From Methanobrevibacter sp. YE315 (GTDB taxonomy: Archaea; Methanobacteriota; Methanobacteria; Methanobacteriales; Methanobacteriaceae), in contig NZ_CP010834.1 in NCBI RefSeq assembly GCF_001548675.1, forward strand, positions 500,001-564,000: a stretch of 64,000 nt of DNA, written 5' to 3'. Each line of letters opens with the position of its first letter. Within the stretch, counting starts at the first letter, position 1. The position numbers and the translations under genes were made by a program. Below the pieces are notes generated by a model, which was given only the letters and a program-made list of their open reading frames with translations, had not been told where the DNA came from and did no database searches. Below are positions 1,148-9,398 of the stretch, piece after piece.

Positions 1148-2752
1148 CTAATCTATTGACAATGCCTTCATATCCAACATATTGGCTACATAATCATCCG
1201 GAGCCAATACAATTGCTGTTCTGCCCTCAATAATTTTTATAAGTAAATCAACTCCCATATCATTATTGTAATCAATAATCAACAGTTCAGGATTATGTAT
1301 CAACGCTCTTGCAAGACATATCAGTCTTCTTTCATGGGTGCTTAAATTATTTGAGTCATAAGATATTTTAGTCTCATACCGGTCAGGGAATTTTTCAATT
1401 AAACTGTGCAATCCAATTAATTCACAGACTCCTATTACATCTTCGGAGCTGAATTCATCCTCACAAACGATATTTTCCATAACAGTTCCATCAAACACGT
1501 AATTTTCCTCTGTTGAAACTCCAATAAGATTTTTGTTTGAATTTATATCATATTGAATTAAATCCAAATCATTCACTTTGATGCTTCCGTTTTCAGCTTC
1601 AAGAAGGCCTAAAAATATCTTAATTAAATTGTTCCTACTGTCTCCTGTAAGAGAGACATGTTCACCAGGCATGATTTTTAGATTGAAATCTTCTATCTCA
1701 CCATAGGAAATGTTTTCAAATTCGATTTCACTAATGCCGCCAACTTCCGGAAATTCTTTTTTTCTCTTTTCAGGCATATCCAAAATTTCATAGATTCTAT
1801 CCAAACATGCATATGCTGTTCTTATGCCATTCAATGTATTTCCAATTGATATTATTGGTTTTTTCATTAACTGATAGTATAAAACAAAGGTTGTGAATGT
1901 CCCCATGTCTATGATTCCGGCATATACTAAAAATCCTCCATAAATATATAGAAATAGCTGCAGATTAATTGTTATAAATGAGTTGACCGGATACATTATC
2001 TCAGTATAAAATCTGGACTTTTTATAACTGTCCTTTTGCTTGATATTATATTCCCTTAACCTTTTTCGGGAATACTCCTCACTGCTGAATGATTCAATCA
2101 TCATACGATTTTTCAGGAAATCTCCAATGAAACCCATTATATTGCCCAAGTCATTTTGATGTATTTTATAGTAGTTTCTTGTTTTTTTGTGAAATGGGTA
2201 TATCACAAGAGGATAAATCGCAACCAGTGCAAAAAGTATTCCTGATAATTTCAAATCCATATTGCTGCTCATCCAAAGGACAAATATTATTATTGTAACA
2301 TCTGAGAGGAAAAGAATTATTGTGTTGCTTATAAATATCTTGAGGTTGACAACATCATTGTTGATTCTAGCCAGTATGTTGCCATCAAATTCTGTCTCAT
2401 CAATGTCAATATAGCTTAATTTTGCATATAACTGATTTCTCAATTTCCGAATTGCCCGTTCACTTGTTTTAAACATTATTCTGTTGGCAGGTATTCTAAT
2501 CAGATGGCTTACGGCAAACAGCATCACTATAAGTATAATTTCATCGTAAGAAGTTTTCACTGGAAACTCGTTTAAATTAAACGCATACTGCATTAATGAA
2601 TTTATCAATCTTCCAACAAGTTTTGGAGCATAAACTGATAAAATAACGGATATCACCATCATAATAATGGCAGCCATTATCTGATATTTATAATCCTTAA
2701 GAAGATTAATCAGCTTGAAGGTCAGTTCCCTTGTGGAATATTTATAAACCAT
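1148..2752 (-). CDS. ABC exporter half-transporter with degenerate ATPase domain
   Basis: A 534-residue protein in the layout of an ABC exporter: about six membrane segments in residues 1-305, then a nucleotide-binding domain. The ATPase motifs are badly eroded. The P-loop position (370-377) reads GDSRNNLI with no Lys, the signature position reads LSTHE instead of LSGGQ, the residue after Walker B Asp494 is Tyr495 where the catalytic Glu should be, and the H-loop His is replaced by Pro. A start at 2752 is preferred over one 15 bases upstream because GGTGA lies five bases before it. It overlaps the end of its partner gene by 11 bases, so the two are probably translated together. Substrate unknown. 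Erosion with an intact reading frame suggests a retained structural or regulatory role; this is inference. Confidence 0.8.
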   Translation of the reverse strand: MVYKYSTRELTFKLINLLKDYKYQIMAAIIMMVISVILSVYAPKLVGRLINSLMQYAFNLNEFPVKTSYDEIILIVMLFAVSHLIRIPANRIMFKTSERAIRKLRNQLYAKLSYIDIDETEFDGNILARINNDVVNLKIFISNTIILFLSDVTIIIFVLWMSSNMDLKLSGILFALVAIYPLVIYPFHKKTRNYYKIHQNDLGNIMGFIGDFLKNRMMIESFSSEEYSRKRLREYNIKQKDSYKKSRFYTEIMYPVNSFITINLQLFLYIYGGFLVYAGIIDMGTFTTFVLYYQLMKKPIISIGNTLNGIRTAYACLDRIYEILDMPEKRKKEFPEVGGISEIEFENISYGEIEDFNLKIMPGEHVSLTGDSRNNLIKIFLGLLEAENGSIKVNDLDLIQYDINSNKNLIGVSTEENYVFDGTVMENIVCEDEFSSEDVIGVCELIGLHSLIEKFPDRYETKISYDSNNLSTHERRLICLARALIHNPELLIIDYNNDMGVDLLIKIIEGRTAIVLAPDDYVANMLDMKALSID

Positions 2753-4352
2753 TAATCTCACCGCCATTTAATTCTATGACCTTGTCAATTTGAGGATAGC
2801 TTTTAGTGTCATTATCGATGAATATTACGGTTTTGTTATCAAGTCTATTTAGGATATTTCTGATTATGATTTCCTTATCATCTGACCTGATGGCGGAAAA
2901 CGAATTGTCAAAAACATAGATTTCTCTTTCATGGGCAATGCTTCTTGCAATGGACAGTTTCTGCTTTAAGTCACTATTCAGATTTTTCCCGCTTTCATAA
3001 ACTTCAAAATCCAAATCCCTATCAAACAATGAAATCCTGCAGGCTTCAATTACATCACCTGGACTTATGCTTTCATCACCCAGCCGAATATTTTCCAGCA
3101 CGCTGTCCTTTAAAAAGTTGGGATCGTCTGGAGCATAGGAGATCAATCTTCTTAAGCTTTTAGGGGATACGGCATTATTGTCTATTAGGATTTCCCCTTC
3201 AAATTCCCGGTAAAATCCCATAAGCAAATTCATCAGGCTGCTTTTACCGCTGCCGGCAGCACCTGTAATCAATGTATGTGAACCCTTTTTGATCTCCAGG
3301 GATATGTTTGAAAGAATATGTCTTTCATCGTAAACGAGAGTTATGTCATTCAATCTAATATCTTTAAAATCACTTATTTCCTCAATTTCCTCGTTTTCGC
3401 TTTTTTCTAAAATTAAAACATCTTCAATACGGGTTGCACCAGTATATGTCATGTGAAAACTGTTTGTAAATGAAATCAATCCGTTCAGGCTTCTTATAAA
3501 GTAGCTTATAACCAATAGAATGAGGATTATGTCTATAATTTTCATGCCGGACAGCCCGTAGTTGGCGACAAAATAGGATATAATAAGGATTAATATGATA
3601 TCCATCACGACTATAATCATCAGGAAAATGTTCAGTCGGTACTGAAAACGGTAGCCTTTATTGTATGACTCATCAGTAACGCTTTTAAATCCATTTTCAC
3701 CCAATTTTTCTTTATTGTATTGCTTAAATAAGTTTGCACCGGCGATTTTATCTCTGAATCTCCTGTTGATTTTACCAAGTATTGCCTTGACCTTGAAATA
3801 ACTGTTGGCTAATCCTATTAGTTTATAAATAAAAATGCTTAAAAAAATCAGTGCGAATAATGCGAAAACTAACGATATCATGGGATTTATATCATATAAA
3901 TTGATAATTATGCTGATTGTCAAAAGCAAAACGAACAAGACTTTCTTAATGAATATCATCAGTGCCGCCTGGAATGATGAAACCCCTCTTACTGTCCGGG
4001 TCATCAAACCTGAAAAAGCGATTCTGTCAAATTCATCCATGGAATCCATACTTGTATATATGTCAAAGAGCTTTTCACGGATATCATAGCCGAAATTGGA
4101 TATGAATTCCACTGAAAGATATGAAACCATCACTGAAGATATGACCAGCAGTATTGCGGTATTAAATACGGTCAACACACCCGTTTCAAGTATATCCAGC
4201 AGTTCTATATTATATCCCTTAATAACAAACATCAGTAGGGGCAGGTCGCAGATAATCTCAATTTGACAGTACGTATAAATGAACATGAATATGACAATCA
4301 ATGTCAGTATTTTCCAATATTTTTTAAGCAAATATTTTATTAAAATTTTCAT
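2742..4352 (-). CDS. ABC exporter half-transporter, partner subunit
   Basis: The 536-residue partner of the next gene downstream. Transmembrane segments fill residues 10-300 and the nucleotide-binding domain follows. Its Walker A (GAAGSGKS, 364-371) is intact. The Q-loop Gln is Asp409, the signature reads LNSDL, Walker B ends Asp482-Asn483 with Asn in place of the catalytic Glu, and the H-loop His is Asn514. It can probably bind ATP, but hydrolysis at a composite site formed with the partner would lack both catalytic Glu and switch His. Family members export lipids, peptides or drugs; nothing here fixes the substrate. The gene is first in a two-gene operon read from the large gap upstream. 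Confidence 0.82.
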   Translation of the reverse strand: MKILIKYLLKKYWKILTLIVIFMFIYTYCQIEIICDLPLLMFVIKGYNIELLDILETGVLTVFNTAILLVISSVMVSYLSVEFISNFGYDIREKLFDIYTSMDSMDEFDRIAFSGLMTRTVRGVSSFQAALMIFIKKVLFVLLLTISIIINLYDINPMISLVFALFALIFLSIFIYKLIGLANSYFKVKAILGKINRRFRDKIAGANLFKQYNKEKLGENGFKSVTDESYNKGYRFQYRLNIFLMIIVVMDIILILIISYFVANYGLSGMKIIDIILILLVISYFIRSLNGLISFTNSFHMTYTGATRIEDVLILEKSENEEIEEISDFKDIRLNDITLVYDERHILSNISLEIKKGSHTLITGAAGSGKSSLMNLLMGFYREFEGEILIDNNAVSPKSLRRLISYAPDDPNFLKDSVLENIRLGDESISPGDVIEACRISLFDRDLDFEVYESGKNLNSDLKQKLSIARSIAHEREIYVFDNSFSAIRSDDKEIIIRNILNRLDNKTVIFIDNDTKSYPQIDKVIELNGGEINGL

Positions 4353-5142: not shown

Positions 5143-6729
5143 ATGGCAAAAGAGGATAAAAAAGTTTCAAGAAAACGTTTTGATGAAATTATGGGTGTTG
5201 CAAAAAAGCATCACTTAGCAAAACTATTAAAAGACAATGAAGATGACGAAGATTTCGAAGTTTCAGATTTAAGATATGCAATGGAAGAGTTAGGTCCTGC
5301 ATTCATTAAGTTAGGTCAACTATTGGCTACCAGGCCGGATATGGTTGGTAATGAAATTGCAGATGACTTGAAAATGCTTAGGGACAATACTCCGGTAACC
5401 CCTTTTGATGAAATGAAACAGGTTATCGAAGGAGAACTTGGACAACCATTGGAAGAAATCTATTCTGAATTCAATGAAGAACCTCTCGGTTCTGCTTCAA
5501 TCGGTCAAGTTTATAAAGCAACATTAAAAGAAACCGGTATGGAAGTTGCAGTTAAAGTTCAAAAACCGGGCATTTATGATGTTATTGTGCCGGATGTAAA
5601 AATATTAAATAAATTAGCCGGAACAGTTGATAAACACGTTTCAGGTTCAAGAATGTATAACTTGCCTGCAATGGCTAAAGAATTTGAAAGATCCATCTTT
5701 AAGGAACTTAACTATATGGAAGAAGTTAAGAATATTACTAAAATCACTAATAACTTTAAAGATGTCGAATATATTAAAATCCCTGAAGTTTATCCTGAGC
5801 TCTGTAGTTCTAAAGTCATAAATATGGAACTTATTGACGGATATGAAGTAACTGATTTATATGACAATGAAATTGAAGGCATCAATAATGCAGAAATCGC
5901 TCAGTTTGGATGTCAATCATATTTAAAACAAGTATTGATTGACGGATTTTTCCATGCAGACCCACACCCAGGAAATCTATTTGTAACTCGTGATAACAGA
6001 CTTTGTTACATTGACTTCGGAATGATGGGTGTTGTAAATGATACTTTCAGATCAAACTTCGCACAATTGATATTGCTTTTGTTAGATGGAAATTCACATC
6101 ATTTAATTAATCAATTGCTTTACATGAACATTATCTCTCCAGAACAAAACACTGAAGAATTCAGAGAAGATGTCGATGACTTGTTGAATTCATACATCGG
6201 TGTAGACCTTGATCAAATGGATGGTATATTCGATGATTTGATGAATGTAATGATTAACCATAATATTGTTCTTCCAAGGGAATTTGTAATGATTGGAAGA
6301 GGAATGATTCTCATTGAGGAAGCTGGTGACAAATTGGATCCACACTTCAATCTTACTGGTGAACTTGAAGTATTCGCTAAAAAAATGATTAAATCAAAAT
6401 TCGAACCAGGAAACCTTGTGGGTGGTGGATTTAACTATATTGTAGAAATTGAACATTTATTAAAAGATTTGCCTGACAGACTCAACAGTACTCTTGATAA
6501 AGTCGAAAAAGGTGAATTGGAATTAAATATGAACCACACAGGTTTGGATGATTTGAAAAATCAGTTATCCATATCCATAATTGTAGCCGCATTGCTTGTA
6601 GGTTCATCCATTGCAATATTGGCTGATAAAGGTCCAAAAGTTTGGGATATTTCTGCAATTGGATTTATAGGATTTGTATTCAGTGCAATTCTTGGAGCTT
6701 ATTTAGTTATAACCTATATTAGAAATTAG
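5143..6729 (+). CDS. UbiB/AarF (ABC1/ADCK) family atypical kinase
   Basis: A 528-residue UbiB-family protein. Family hallmarks are the KxGQ motif (KLGQ, 56-59) that replaces part of the usual kinase substrate site, an Ala-rich nucleotide loop with GSASIGQ (116-122), the ATP-contacting Lys138 in EVAVKVQ, HADPHPGN (271-278), and DFG at 291-293. The C-terminus (about 475-525) carries two membrane segments. Homologs support ubiquinone synthesis in bacteria and mitochondria; methanogens lack ubiquinone, so a role in isoprenoid or membrane-lipid handling is more likely but unproven. GGAGTGAT precedes the ATG. A paralog lies 1 kb downstream on the opposite strand, with a secreted protein between them. 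Confidence 0.88.
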   Translation: MAKEDKKVSRKRFDEIMGVAKKHHLAKLLKDNEDDEDFEVSDLRYAMEELGPAFIKLGQLLATRPDMVGNEIADDLKMLRDNTPVTPFDEMKQVIEGELGQPLEEIYSEFNEEPLGSASIGQVYKATLKETGMEVAVKVQKPGIYDVIVPDVKILNKLAGTVDKHVSGSRMYNLPAMAKEFERSIFKELNYMEEVKNITKITNNFKDVEYIKIPEVYPELCSSKVINMELIDGYEVTDLYDNEIEGINNAEIAQFGCQSYLKQVLIDGFFHADPHPGNLFVTRDNRLCYIDFGMMGVVNDTFRSNFAQLILLLLDGNSHHLINQLLYMNIISPEQNTEEFREDVDDLLNSYIGVDLDQMDGIFDDLMNVMINHNIVLPREFVMIGRGMILIEEAGDKLDPHFNLTGELEVFAKKMIKSKFEPGNLVGGGFNYIVEIEHLLKDLPDRLNSTLDKVEKGELELNMNHTGLDDLKNQLSISIIVAALLVGSSIAILADKGPKVWDISAIGFIGFVFSAILGAYLVITYIRN

Positions 6730-7736: not shown

Positions 7737-9398
7737 CTATTTAATGTCATCTCTTTCTATCATATATTCTATAATTAAGAAAATACCTAATACTGCACTA
7801 AAAACAAAACCAATTAATCCGATCGCGGATATTCCAAATAATTTAGGACCTGCACCACCCATAATGGCTAATGAGGATCCGATAATCAATGATGATATGA
7901 TTAGTGCTACTGATAATTGATTTGTTAACTGGCTTATTTCCTCATGCTTTAATTTTACTTCGAAATCTCCCTCTTCTAGTTTGGAGGCTGTATTTCTAAG
8001 GGTATCGGGCAGATCCTTTGCCAGGTGTTCTACTTGCAATAAATAGTTCATACCAACCTTACTTAATCTTTTTGGTTTGTATTTATTTGTGATTATTTGG
8101 CGGGATAATTCTTTCAATTCGGTGGCGGCATTGAAGTTTGGATCTAGTTTTCTACCAGTGTCTTCGATAAGTGTTATTCCACGACCTATCATTACAAATT
8201 CCTTTGGAAGAATTATGTTGTTTTTTATCATAGCATTTAACAAATCTTCTATTGCACCATCCATGTTCCTTAATTCGGCTCCATAATATAAGTTCATTAA
8301 ATCATCCACATCTGCCCTCAATTCAGGAGTGTTCTGTGATGGGCTGATGATGTCCATATAAATCAGTTGATTAATGATATTGTTTGTGTTGCCGCTTATC
8401 AATAATAAAATTAATTCCGCTAAATCCTCTTTAAAATCTTCATTTAGAATTCCCATCATTCCAACATCAATATAACATAATTTGCGGTCTTCTGTAACAA
8501 TTAAATTTCCAGGATGGGGGTCTGCATGGAAAAAACCATCAATCATTATCTGTTTGAAATAGGATTTAACACCATAACTCGCTATTTTCTTCTTGTCGAT
8601 GTTAGGATAATCTCGTTTAATTAAATCTGTTACTACCACACCTTTTATCAATTCCATTGTGATGACTTTTTCGGAGCAATAATCAAGATATACATCAGGT
8701 ATTTTTATATAACTGATGCTTCTGAAGTTGTATGAAAGATTTTGCAAGTTCATCATTTCTTCCAAATAGTTAAGTTCTTTAAAGATGGATCTTTCAAATT
8801 CGCTAATTATTGCGGGCAGGTTGTAAGTTCTAGTGGCGGATATGTATTTGTCAATTCTTTCCGCTAAAAATTTCATTATTTTGACATCGGATTCTATAAT
8901 TTCACGTGAATTTGGTTTTTGAACTTTAATTGCCACTTCTTGTCCAGTACTCTTTAATTCGGCTTTATATACTTGGCCTATTGATGCTGATCCAAGTGGT
9001 GTTTCATCAATGTTTGTGAATATCTCGTCTAGTGGTGTGCCAAGTTCTTCTTCAATCAATTCTTTCATTTCATTAAAAGGGGTTACTGGAGTATTGTCCC
9101 TTAATTTTTGAAGTTCATTAGCAATTTCTATTCCCACTAAATCTGGCCTGGTACTCAACATTTGACCTAATTTAATATATGCTGGGCCTAATTGTTCCAA
9201 TACTTTTCGTATTCTGATTGGGGCGGTTTCATCTAGAAATGTTTCATCTTTTTTAGTTCTACGGTTTCTTAGAAAAGGAAATTTTTTGAAAAAGGTATTT
9301 TCCTCAATCAAATATCCAAAATCATTATCCTTAAGAACTTTGTAGATTTCATTTATTCTTTTAATGTTTTCATTTCTACTGTTGCTAATAACTTTCAT
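7737..9398 (-). CDS. UbiB/AarF (ABC1/ADCK) family atypical kinase, second copy
   Basis: A 553-residue paralog of the gene at 5143. It keeps KLGQ (76-79), the GSASIGQ loop (136-142), the Lys in EVAIKVQ (K158), HADPHPGN (291-298) and two C-terminal membrane segments. The metal-binding DFG motif reads DVG (311-313). It has a longer basic N-terminus (RNRRTKK near 44-50). Strong similarity across the whole length suggests duplication, with divergence at both ends. Expected to be a membrane-anchored ATP-binding protein acting on isoprenoid or lipid metabolism; the substrate is unknown. Confidence 0.87.
   Translation of the reverse strand: MKVISNSRNENIKRINEIYKVLKDNDFGYLIEENTFFKKFPFLRNRRTKKDETFLDETAPIRIRKVLEQLGPAYIKLGQMLSTRPDLVGIEIANELQKLRDNTPVTPFNEMKELIEEELGTPLDEIFTNIDETPLGSASIGQVYKAELKSTGQEVAIKVQKPNSREIIESDVKIMKFLAERIDKYISATRTYNLPAIISEFERSIFKELNYLEEMMNLQNLSYNFRSISYIKIPDVYLDYCSEKVITMELIKGVVVTDLIKRDYPNIDKKKIASYGVKSYFKQIMIDGFFHADPHPGNLIVTEDRKLCYIDVGMMGILNEDFKEDLAELILLLISGNTNNIINQLIYMDIISPSQNTPELRADVDDLMNLYYGAELRNMDGAIEDLLNAMIKNNIILPKEFVMIGRGITLIEDTGRKLDPNFNAATELKELSRQIITNKYKPKRLSKVGMNYLLQVEHLAKDLPDTLRNTASKLEEGDFEVKLKHEEISQLTNQLSVALIISSLIIGSSLAIMGGAGPKLFGISAIGLIGFVFSAVLGIFLIIEYMIERDDIK

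Follow-up and report, generated by a model that had tools for sequence, protein, structure and literature searches.

A predicted heterodimeric ABC exporter of Methanobrevibacter without a consensus ATP site, and its fused relatives lacking nucleotide-binding domains

Among the described ABC transporters, the heterodimeric exporters TM287/288, BmrCD and TmrAB resemble the gene pair considered here in being encoded by two genes, in having type IV transmembrane domains (TMDs) and in the asymmetry between their halves A and B, but they keep one catalytic ATP site whereas the pair keeps none. SUR1 and SUR2 are cases in which the ABC exporter fold has been turned to regulation, with both nucleotide-binding domains (NBDs) and one competent site kept. 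In Pdr5, the second ATP site is canonical, unlike what is found in the pair. Site 1 of Pdr5 is reported with its Lys, its catalytic Glu (to Asn), its His and the partner signature all changed (PMC7756269), which is the same kind of motif losses as in the pair, and transporters are described there in terms of one degenerate site (PMC7756269). A different outcome is represented by SbmA/BacA (SLiPTs), which have the TMD fold of ABC exporters but have lost the NBDs and the coupling helices, are powered by protons via a glutamate ladder, and have been proposed to stem from a complete ABC transporter (PMC13316013). SbmA/BacA is a bacterial homodimer with TM0 and the glutamate ladder. In the literature covered, which was partial and comprised few subscription papers, no account of exporters with dead NBDs or without NBDs was found for Methanobrevibacter.

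The pair lies in a window of 64,000 nucleotides from Methanobrevibacter sp. YE315 (contig NZ_CP010834.1, positions 500,001 to 564,000), the whole stretch of DNA that was analysed, and consists of two genes on the minus strand. The first one, P0002 (2742..4352, 536 amino acids), encodes the TM287-like half A, with a TMD (approximately residues 1-325) and an NBD whose P-loop is intact, and the second one, P0001 (1148..2767, 539 amino acids), encodes the TM288-like half B, with a TMD and an NBD devoid of the P-loop Lys. The two frames share 26 bp and are free of internal stops, in agreement with the sequence-only reading that had preceded this work and had taken both for intact. In Pfam, PF00005 is above its cut-off in both P0002 (65.8 bits) and P0001 (44.5 bits), while PF00664 is above its cut-off in P0001 (89.8 bits) and reaches 18.6 bits in P0002, below its 28-bit cut-off. 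The nearest solved relatives are TM287 for P0002 (6qv0_A, E 2.2e-33) and TM288 for P0001 (6quz_B, E 8.2e-52), and both matches are nearly whole-length. Each of the two adjacent genes carries an exporter-type TMD and an NBD, as in the TM287/288-like type IV heterodimers, so that by domains and matches the pair belongs to the heterodimeric type IV ABC exporters; it has no ATP site with the consensus set of Lys, Glu, His and LSGGQ. The genome of the window, a single contig of 2,273,296 bases, contains nine PF00664 matches, P0002 excluded, and three canonical pairs (near 210, 810 and 1340 kb) that served as yardsticks.

The ATP-site motifs were placed by alignment to eight canonical pairs from Methanobacteriota, including these three, and mapped to window coordinates, all on the minus strand. 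In half A, Walker A is intact (GAAGSGKSS, 3237..3263), the place of the Q-loop reads YAPDDPN with Asp instead of Gln (3117..3137), that of the signature reads NLNSDLKQ instead of the canonical NFSGGQKQ (2961..2984), Walker B is IYVFDNSFS (2895..2921), with an Asn, invariant in alignment A4, at the catalytic place where canonical A halves have Asp, and the place of the H-loop is VIFIDND (2808..2828), with Asn where canonical A halves have Gln. The half A site retains the P-loop and the Walker B Asp only. In half B, the P-loop is reduced to the remnant GDSRNN, three residues shorter and without GK[ST] (1628..1645), the Q-loop place is VSTEENY with Gln changed to Glu (1499..1519), the signature place is NLSTHERR (1325..1348), Walker B is LLIIDYNND with the catalytic Glu changed to Tyr (1259..1285), and the H-loop place is AIVLAPDD with His changed to Pro (1193..1216). 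The half B site is devoid of the P-loop Lys, the Glu and the His, and its partner signature, contributed by half A, is the altered NLNSDLKQ. The alignment thereby confirms the residues that the sequence-only reading had named, namely Tyr in one subunit and Asn in the other after Walker B, Pro and Asn in place of the two H-loop His, no LSGGQ in either signature, and a P-loop Lys in one half only.

In the eight canonical pairs, half A has FDD at Walker B, SQR or AQK at the H-loop and SGGQ in the signature, while half B has LDE at Walker B and AHR at the H-loop. Read from these motifs, half A is already the degenerate-site half in the canonical pairs of this genus, and half B is the catalytic half. 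Since half A is ancestrally degenerate, the novelty of the window pair is the total loss of the catalytic site, with the ancestral non-catalytic P-loop kept: on the motif evidence, the ancestrally catalytic site, to which half B contributes P-loop, Walker B and H-loop and half A the signature, no longer has its catalytic elements. Binding of one ATP by the window pair is still probable.

These losses are shared by orthologs. Nine window-type pairs were found, in the genomes G000, G014, G023 and G092 at 83-85% identity to the window, and in G042 (two, in tandem), G020 and G131 (two; another genus) at 37-40%. A related type from another genus, labelled g3, comprises six pairs at 23-29% identity, in G094 (two, in tandem), G087, G117, G107 and G113, which brings the full pairs to 15. 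The catalytic Glu and the H-loop His are absent from all 30 halves of these pairs, whereas the P-loop Lys of half A is retained in 15/15. Asn in A and Tyr in B at the Walker B place are common to the nine window-type pairs, in all of which GK[ST] of half B is lost; the six g3-type pairs all keep both P-loops, GK[ST] of half B included, and in both of their halves the catalytic position is occupied by Asn and the H-loop position by Asp. The single-P-loop state noted by the sequence-only reading is thus general within the window type but does not extend to the g3 type, and the survey it had proposed for orthologs with restored Glu or His returned none among the 30 halves. A relative standing apart from the 15, in G031, has a frame break at the P-loop of half A, Asp-Glu at Walker B in the downstream frame without the H-loop His, and Glu-Asp at the Walker B place of half B; not every relative has therefore lost the Glu at Walker B of half A. 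A half A profile run against 151 Methanobacteriota genomes scores at least 600 bits in 15 genomes, of which G114 and G138 are outside the motif reading and G046 was read in part, with agreeing motifs, while canonical matches reach at most 422 bits. The motif table includes the partial G046 and leaves out G114, G115, G138, G022 and the partial second G107 pair. Among four close orthologs dN/dS is 0.18-0.38, and it is higher in the NBD than in the TMD in only 3 of 12 comparisons (one of six for P0002, two of six for P0001); the NBDs of the pair are thus under purifying selection.

Further relatives are devoid of both NBDs. They are fusions of two TMDs in one frame of about 660 residues, the first half resembling the TMD of P0002 and the second that of P0001, in the same order as the genes, with no NBD between or after them. 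Two of these proteins were scanned with Pfam and showed two PF00664 stretches and no PF00005. When a copy is counted if at least 500 of 662 positions are free of stops, 38 copies are present in 32 of the 151 Methanobacteriota genomes, 30 belonging to the window's genus and two to another; at least one of the counted copies, that of G025, has a further piece in another frame, so that uninterrupted does not mean complete there. In GTDB contigs (84,980 species), 37 loci were found, all from Methanobrevibacter by record title and mostly from gut MAGs, the carriers including methanogens of the rumen and of other ruminant guts (record titles). Viral contigs yielded no relative of this family, and the window's own genome has no such protein, the best match there being P0001. 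The first nine proteins aligned are 46-73% identical to the first row, and a larger alignment holds 28 of the 37 loci, frame-broken or short ones being left out. Eleven of these 28 loci were compared pairwise (55 comparisons); in the 37 with dS < 1.5, dN/dS lies at 0.10-0.24. Broken copies occur in G044, G007, G023 and G048. The dead-NBD and NBD-less forms co-occur in G014, G020 and G042, and in G014 and G023 the NBD-less gene adjoins the dead pair on the opposite strand, being broken in G023.

The NBD-less proteins are like SbmA/BacA in having the exporter TMD fold without NBD, whereas the window pair keeps its NBDs. They are unlike SbmA/BacA in that they are fused heterodimers belonging to PF00664 and have no clear glutamate ladder: the two proteins scanned did not match the SbmA_BacA Pfam family at E 0.01, and, at the sequence level with hydrophobicity as guide, no clear series of buried conserved Glu was seen. 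The conserved acids of the family lie mostly near predicted helix ends, which, together with the lack of a clear ladder, leaves proton coupling unsupported by the sequence. Membership of the SLiPTs was rejected on these three grounds.

In terms of phylogeny, a tree of 37 rows and 645 columns was built from the TMDs of halves A and B, with eight canonical pairs, all from Methanobacteriota, and without G144, G046, G114, G115, G138, G022 and the partial second G107 pair. The window-type, g3-type, G031 and NBD-less members form one group against the canonical pairs (support 100/99.9). The tree program flagged long branches meeting, which was countered by subgroup removals only, and the split from the canonical pairs holds after removal of the g3 type, of the window type, or of the NBD-less proteins with G031 (SH-aLRT 99-100). 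The NBD-less proteins are monophyletic (100/98) with G031 as sister (100/99). The grouping of the window type with the NBD-less proteins against the g3 type has a support of 63/23, and because the branching among the three subgroups is so poorly supported, no order of steps is claimed. As the NBD-less proteins are another branch rather than orthologs of the window pair, the absence of NBDs in them is no proof that the NBDs are dispensable here.

An AlphaFold2 model of one NBD-less protein (28 rows) is all helical, with a pLDDT of 77.1 and a pTM of 0.74, and matches the P-glycoprotein TMD dimer over its whole extent, passing over the NBDs (8gmj, Z 29.3, 624 residues, 3.5 A; also with Foldseek). 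Ordinary exporters rank at the top of its fold matches, and SUR chains are also among them, a likeness of fold only; SbmA is absent among the 50 matches listed (VIA-align), which has no bearing either way. The model of P0001 (14 rows; pLDDT 57.5, below 50 in the NBD) is uninformative on the fold of its NBD. TMDs grip NBDs through the loop of coupling helix 2 (ICL2). Between fixed anchors, the length of this loop is invariant in all 24 NBD-bearing rows, dead or alive (half A, 36 residues; half B, 43), and since these lengths are canonical in the window pair, its dead NBDs are probably still docked. In the NBD-less proteins, ICL2 is shortened in 13 of 13 rows, half A having 35 residues (12 rows) or 32 (one), and half B 35 (12 rows) or 43 (one), which suggests that part of the docking gear has been lost. 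The ICL1 regions stay conserved, so that the loss of coupling helices there would be at most partial.

The kept membrane part, the presumed loss of the ability to burn ATP and the existence of relatives without the ATP-using parts suggest that the system now works in some other way. With modest confidence, we favour the reading that this is a lineage of type IV heterodimeric ABC exporters in which ATP hydrolysis has been retired and the work falls to the TMDs, as in SbmA/BacA, although the two would have arisen separately. One nucleotide would sit at the P-loop of half A with no useful turnover and would hold or gate the dimer, while the TMDs would do the real work, either moving a substrate down its own gradient or an ion gradient, the latter option being modelled on SbmA/BacA with protons, or forming a gated pathway. 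The NBD-less relatives would then be an end state, freed of nucleotide control. More tentatively, and somewhat short of an even expectation, an ATP-driven exporter may have become an ATP-independent transporter or channel in Methanobrevibacter and allied archaea, by a route separate from that of bacterial SbmA/BacA, with the grades still present in living genomes: canonical pairs, pairs with both sites dead, pairs with one P-loop also gone as in the window, and fused NBD-less proteins. The sequence-only reading had taken both sites for degenerate and the pair for no ordinary ATP-driven exporter, and the motifs, the orthologs, the selection and the NBD-less relatives all point the same way. It had offered a poor ATPase, a gated channel, a receptor or a regulator as roles, and missed that of NBD-independent TMDs resembling SbmA/BacA.

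A role as receptor, scaffold or regulator would mean that the TMDs no longer transport, and that the complex senses a ligand, and ATP as well, and controls another membrane protein as SUR does in KATP channels. The kept nucleotide P-loop with dead catalysis fits this, as do the SUR chains that the NBD-less model matches, though in fold only; however, ordinary exporters come first in those matches, and no conserved partner gene was found beside dead pairs or NBD-less genes, whose neighbours differ between loci. We regard such a role as unlikely. Still less probable is a slow but real ATP-driven exporter, in which Asn and other residues would allow sufficient hydrolysis at the site of half A: the P-loop and the Walker B Asp retained there, and coupling-helix-2 loops of canonical length, with the NBDs probably still docked, speak for it, but Glu and His are gone from both sites, the half B signature that would complete the half A site is not LSGGQ, and purifying selection acts on relatives that have no NBD at all.

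Two further explanations are considered very improbable. The sequence-only reading had itself named decay in this strain alone as the finding that would undo its claim, and frame-broken relatives do exist (G046, G115 and G031, besides the broken NBD-less copies listed above). Nevertheless, the frames of the window pair are intact and the same losses recur at 37-85% identity in two genera; since Glu and His are missing from 15 of 15 full pairs and dN/dS among the close orthologs is in the range of purifying selection, a dying exporter of one strain was rejected. Equally remote is the supply of NBDs in trans to the NBD-less TMDs, and perhaps to the dead pair. The conserved ICL1 regions of the NBD-less proteins speak for it; the uniformly shortened ICL2 and the lack of an NBD gene as conserved neighbour speak against it. 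It is moreover made unlikely by G008, which has two NBD-less copies and no exporter-type NBD match above 80 bits, the sole clean case of six genomes searched.

If the favoured reading of TMDs working without ATP hydrolysis holds, the group bears on the change from primary to secondary transporter, of which SbmA/BacA shows mainly the end points. As dead-NBD pairs and NBD-less fusions occur within a single group, and in some cases within a single genome, close relatives are at hand for testing each grade, and the dead pairs are natural non-hydrolysing heterodimers in which the effect of ATP binding by itself can be studied. Given that the carriers include ruminant-gut methanogens, the substrate may bear on their ecology.

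In the surroundings of the pair, a gene that we presume to be UbiB-like lies within a few kb in G000, G014 and G092, and is read as synteny. The gene before the pair in G042 and G020, and before pair remnants in G046 and G022, encodes a membrane protein of about 230 residues.

In the tree of TMDs, the sister of the NBD-less clade, that is, of the fused genes of about 660 residues in which a single frame carries both TMDs, is G031 (L056:8964-12267), a genome whose gene for half A (the TM287-like subunit) has its frame broken exactly at the P-loop. This break could be a step towards NBD loss, or a MAG error. Among the NBD-less copies, those of G007 (L064:473-2281) and G044 (L065:7331-9139) have broken frames that contain an in-frame TAG and are identical between the two genomes, which may reflect either a pseudogene common to both or an unusual read-through. 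In G014 and G023, a single neighbourhood holds both the NBD-less form and the dead ABC pair (devoid of catalytic Glu and H-loop His), the fused gene, intact in G014 (L052:7765-9753) and broken in G023 (L053:16577-18163), lying on the strand opposite to the adjoining pair.

In the window, the dead pair adjoins two genes (5143-6729 and 7737-9398) which we take to encode UbiB/ABC1-like kinases, and a gene similar to these putative kinase genes is found near the dead pair in G014 and G092. Besides, a gene for an approximately 230-residue membrane protein lies ahead of the dead pair in G042 (L054:10088-10786) and G020 (L055:1421-2113), and ahead of dead-pair remnants in G046 (L057:14417-15112) and G022 (L068:882-1577).

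The dead pair occurs as tandem duplicates in G042 (L054:10803-17667) and G094 (L084:4299-11424). Finally, its half A gene is of equal length and equal score in G114 (L086) and G087 (L085), which are assigned to two genera and both carry it on short contigs; this match would result from either recent transfer or contamination.
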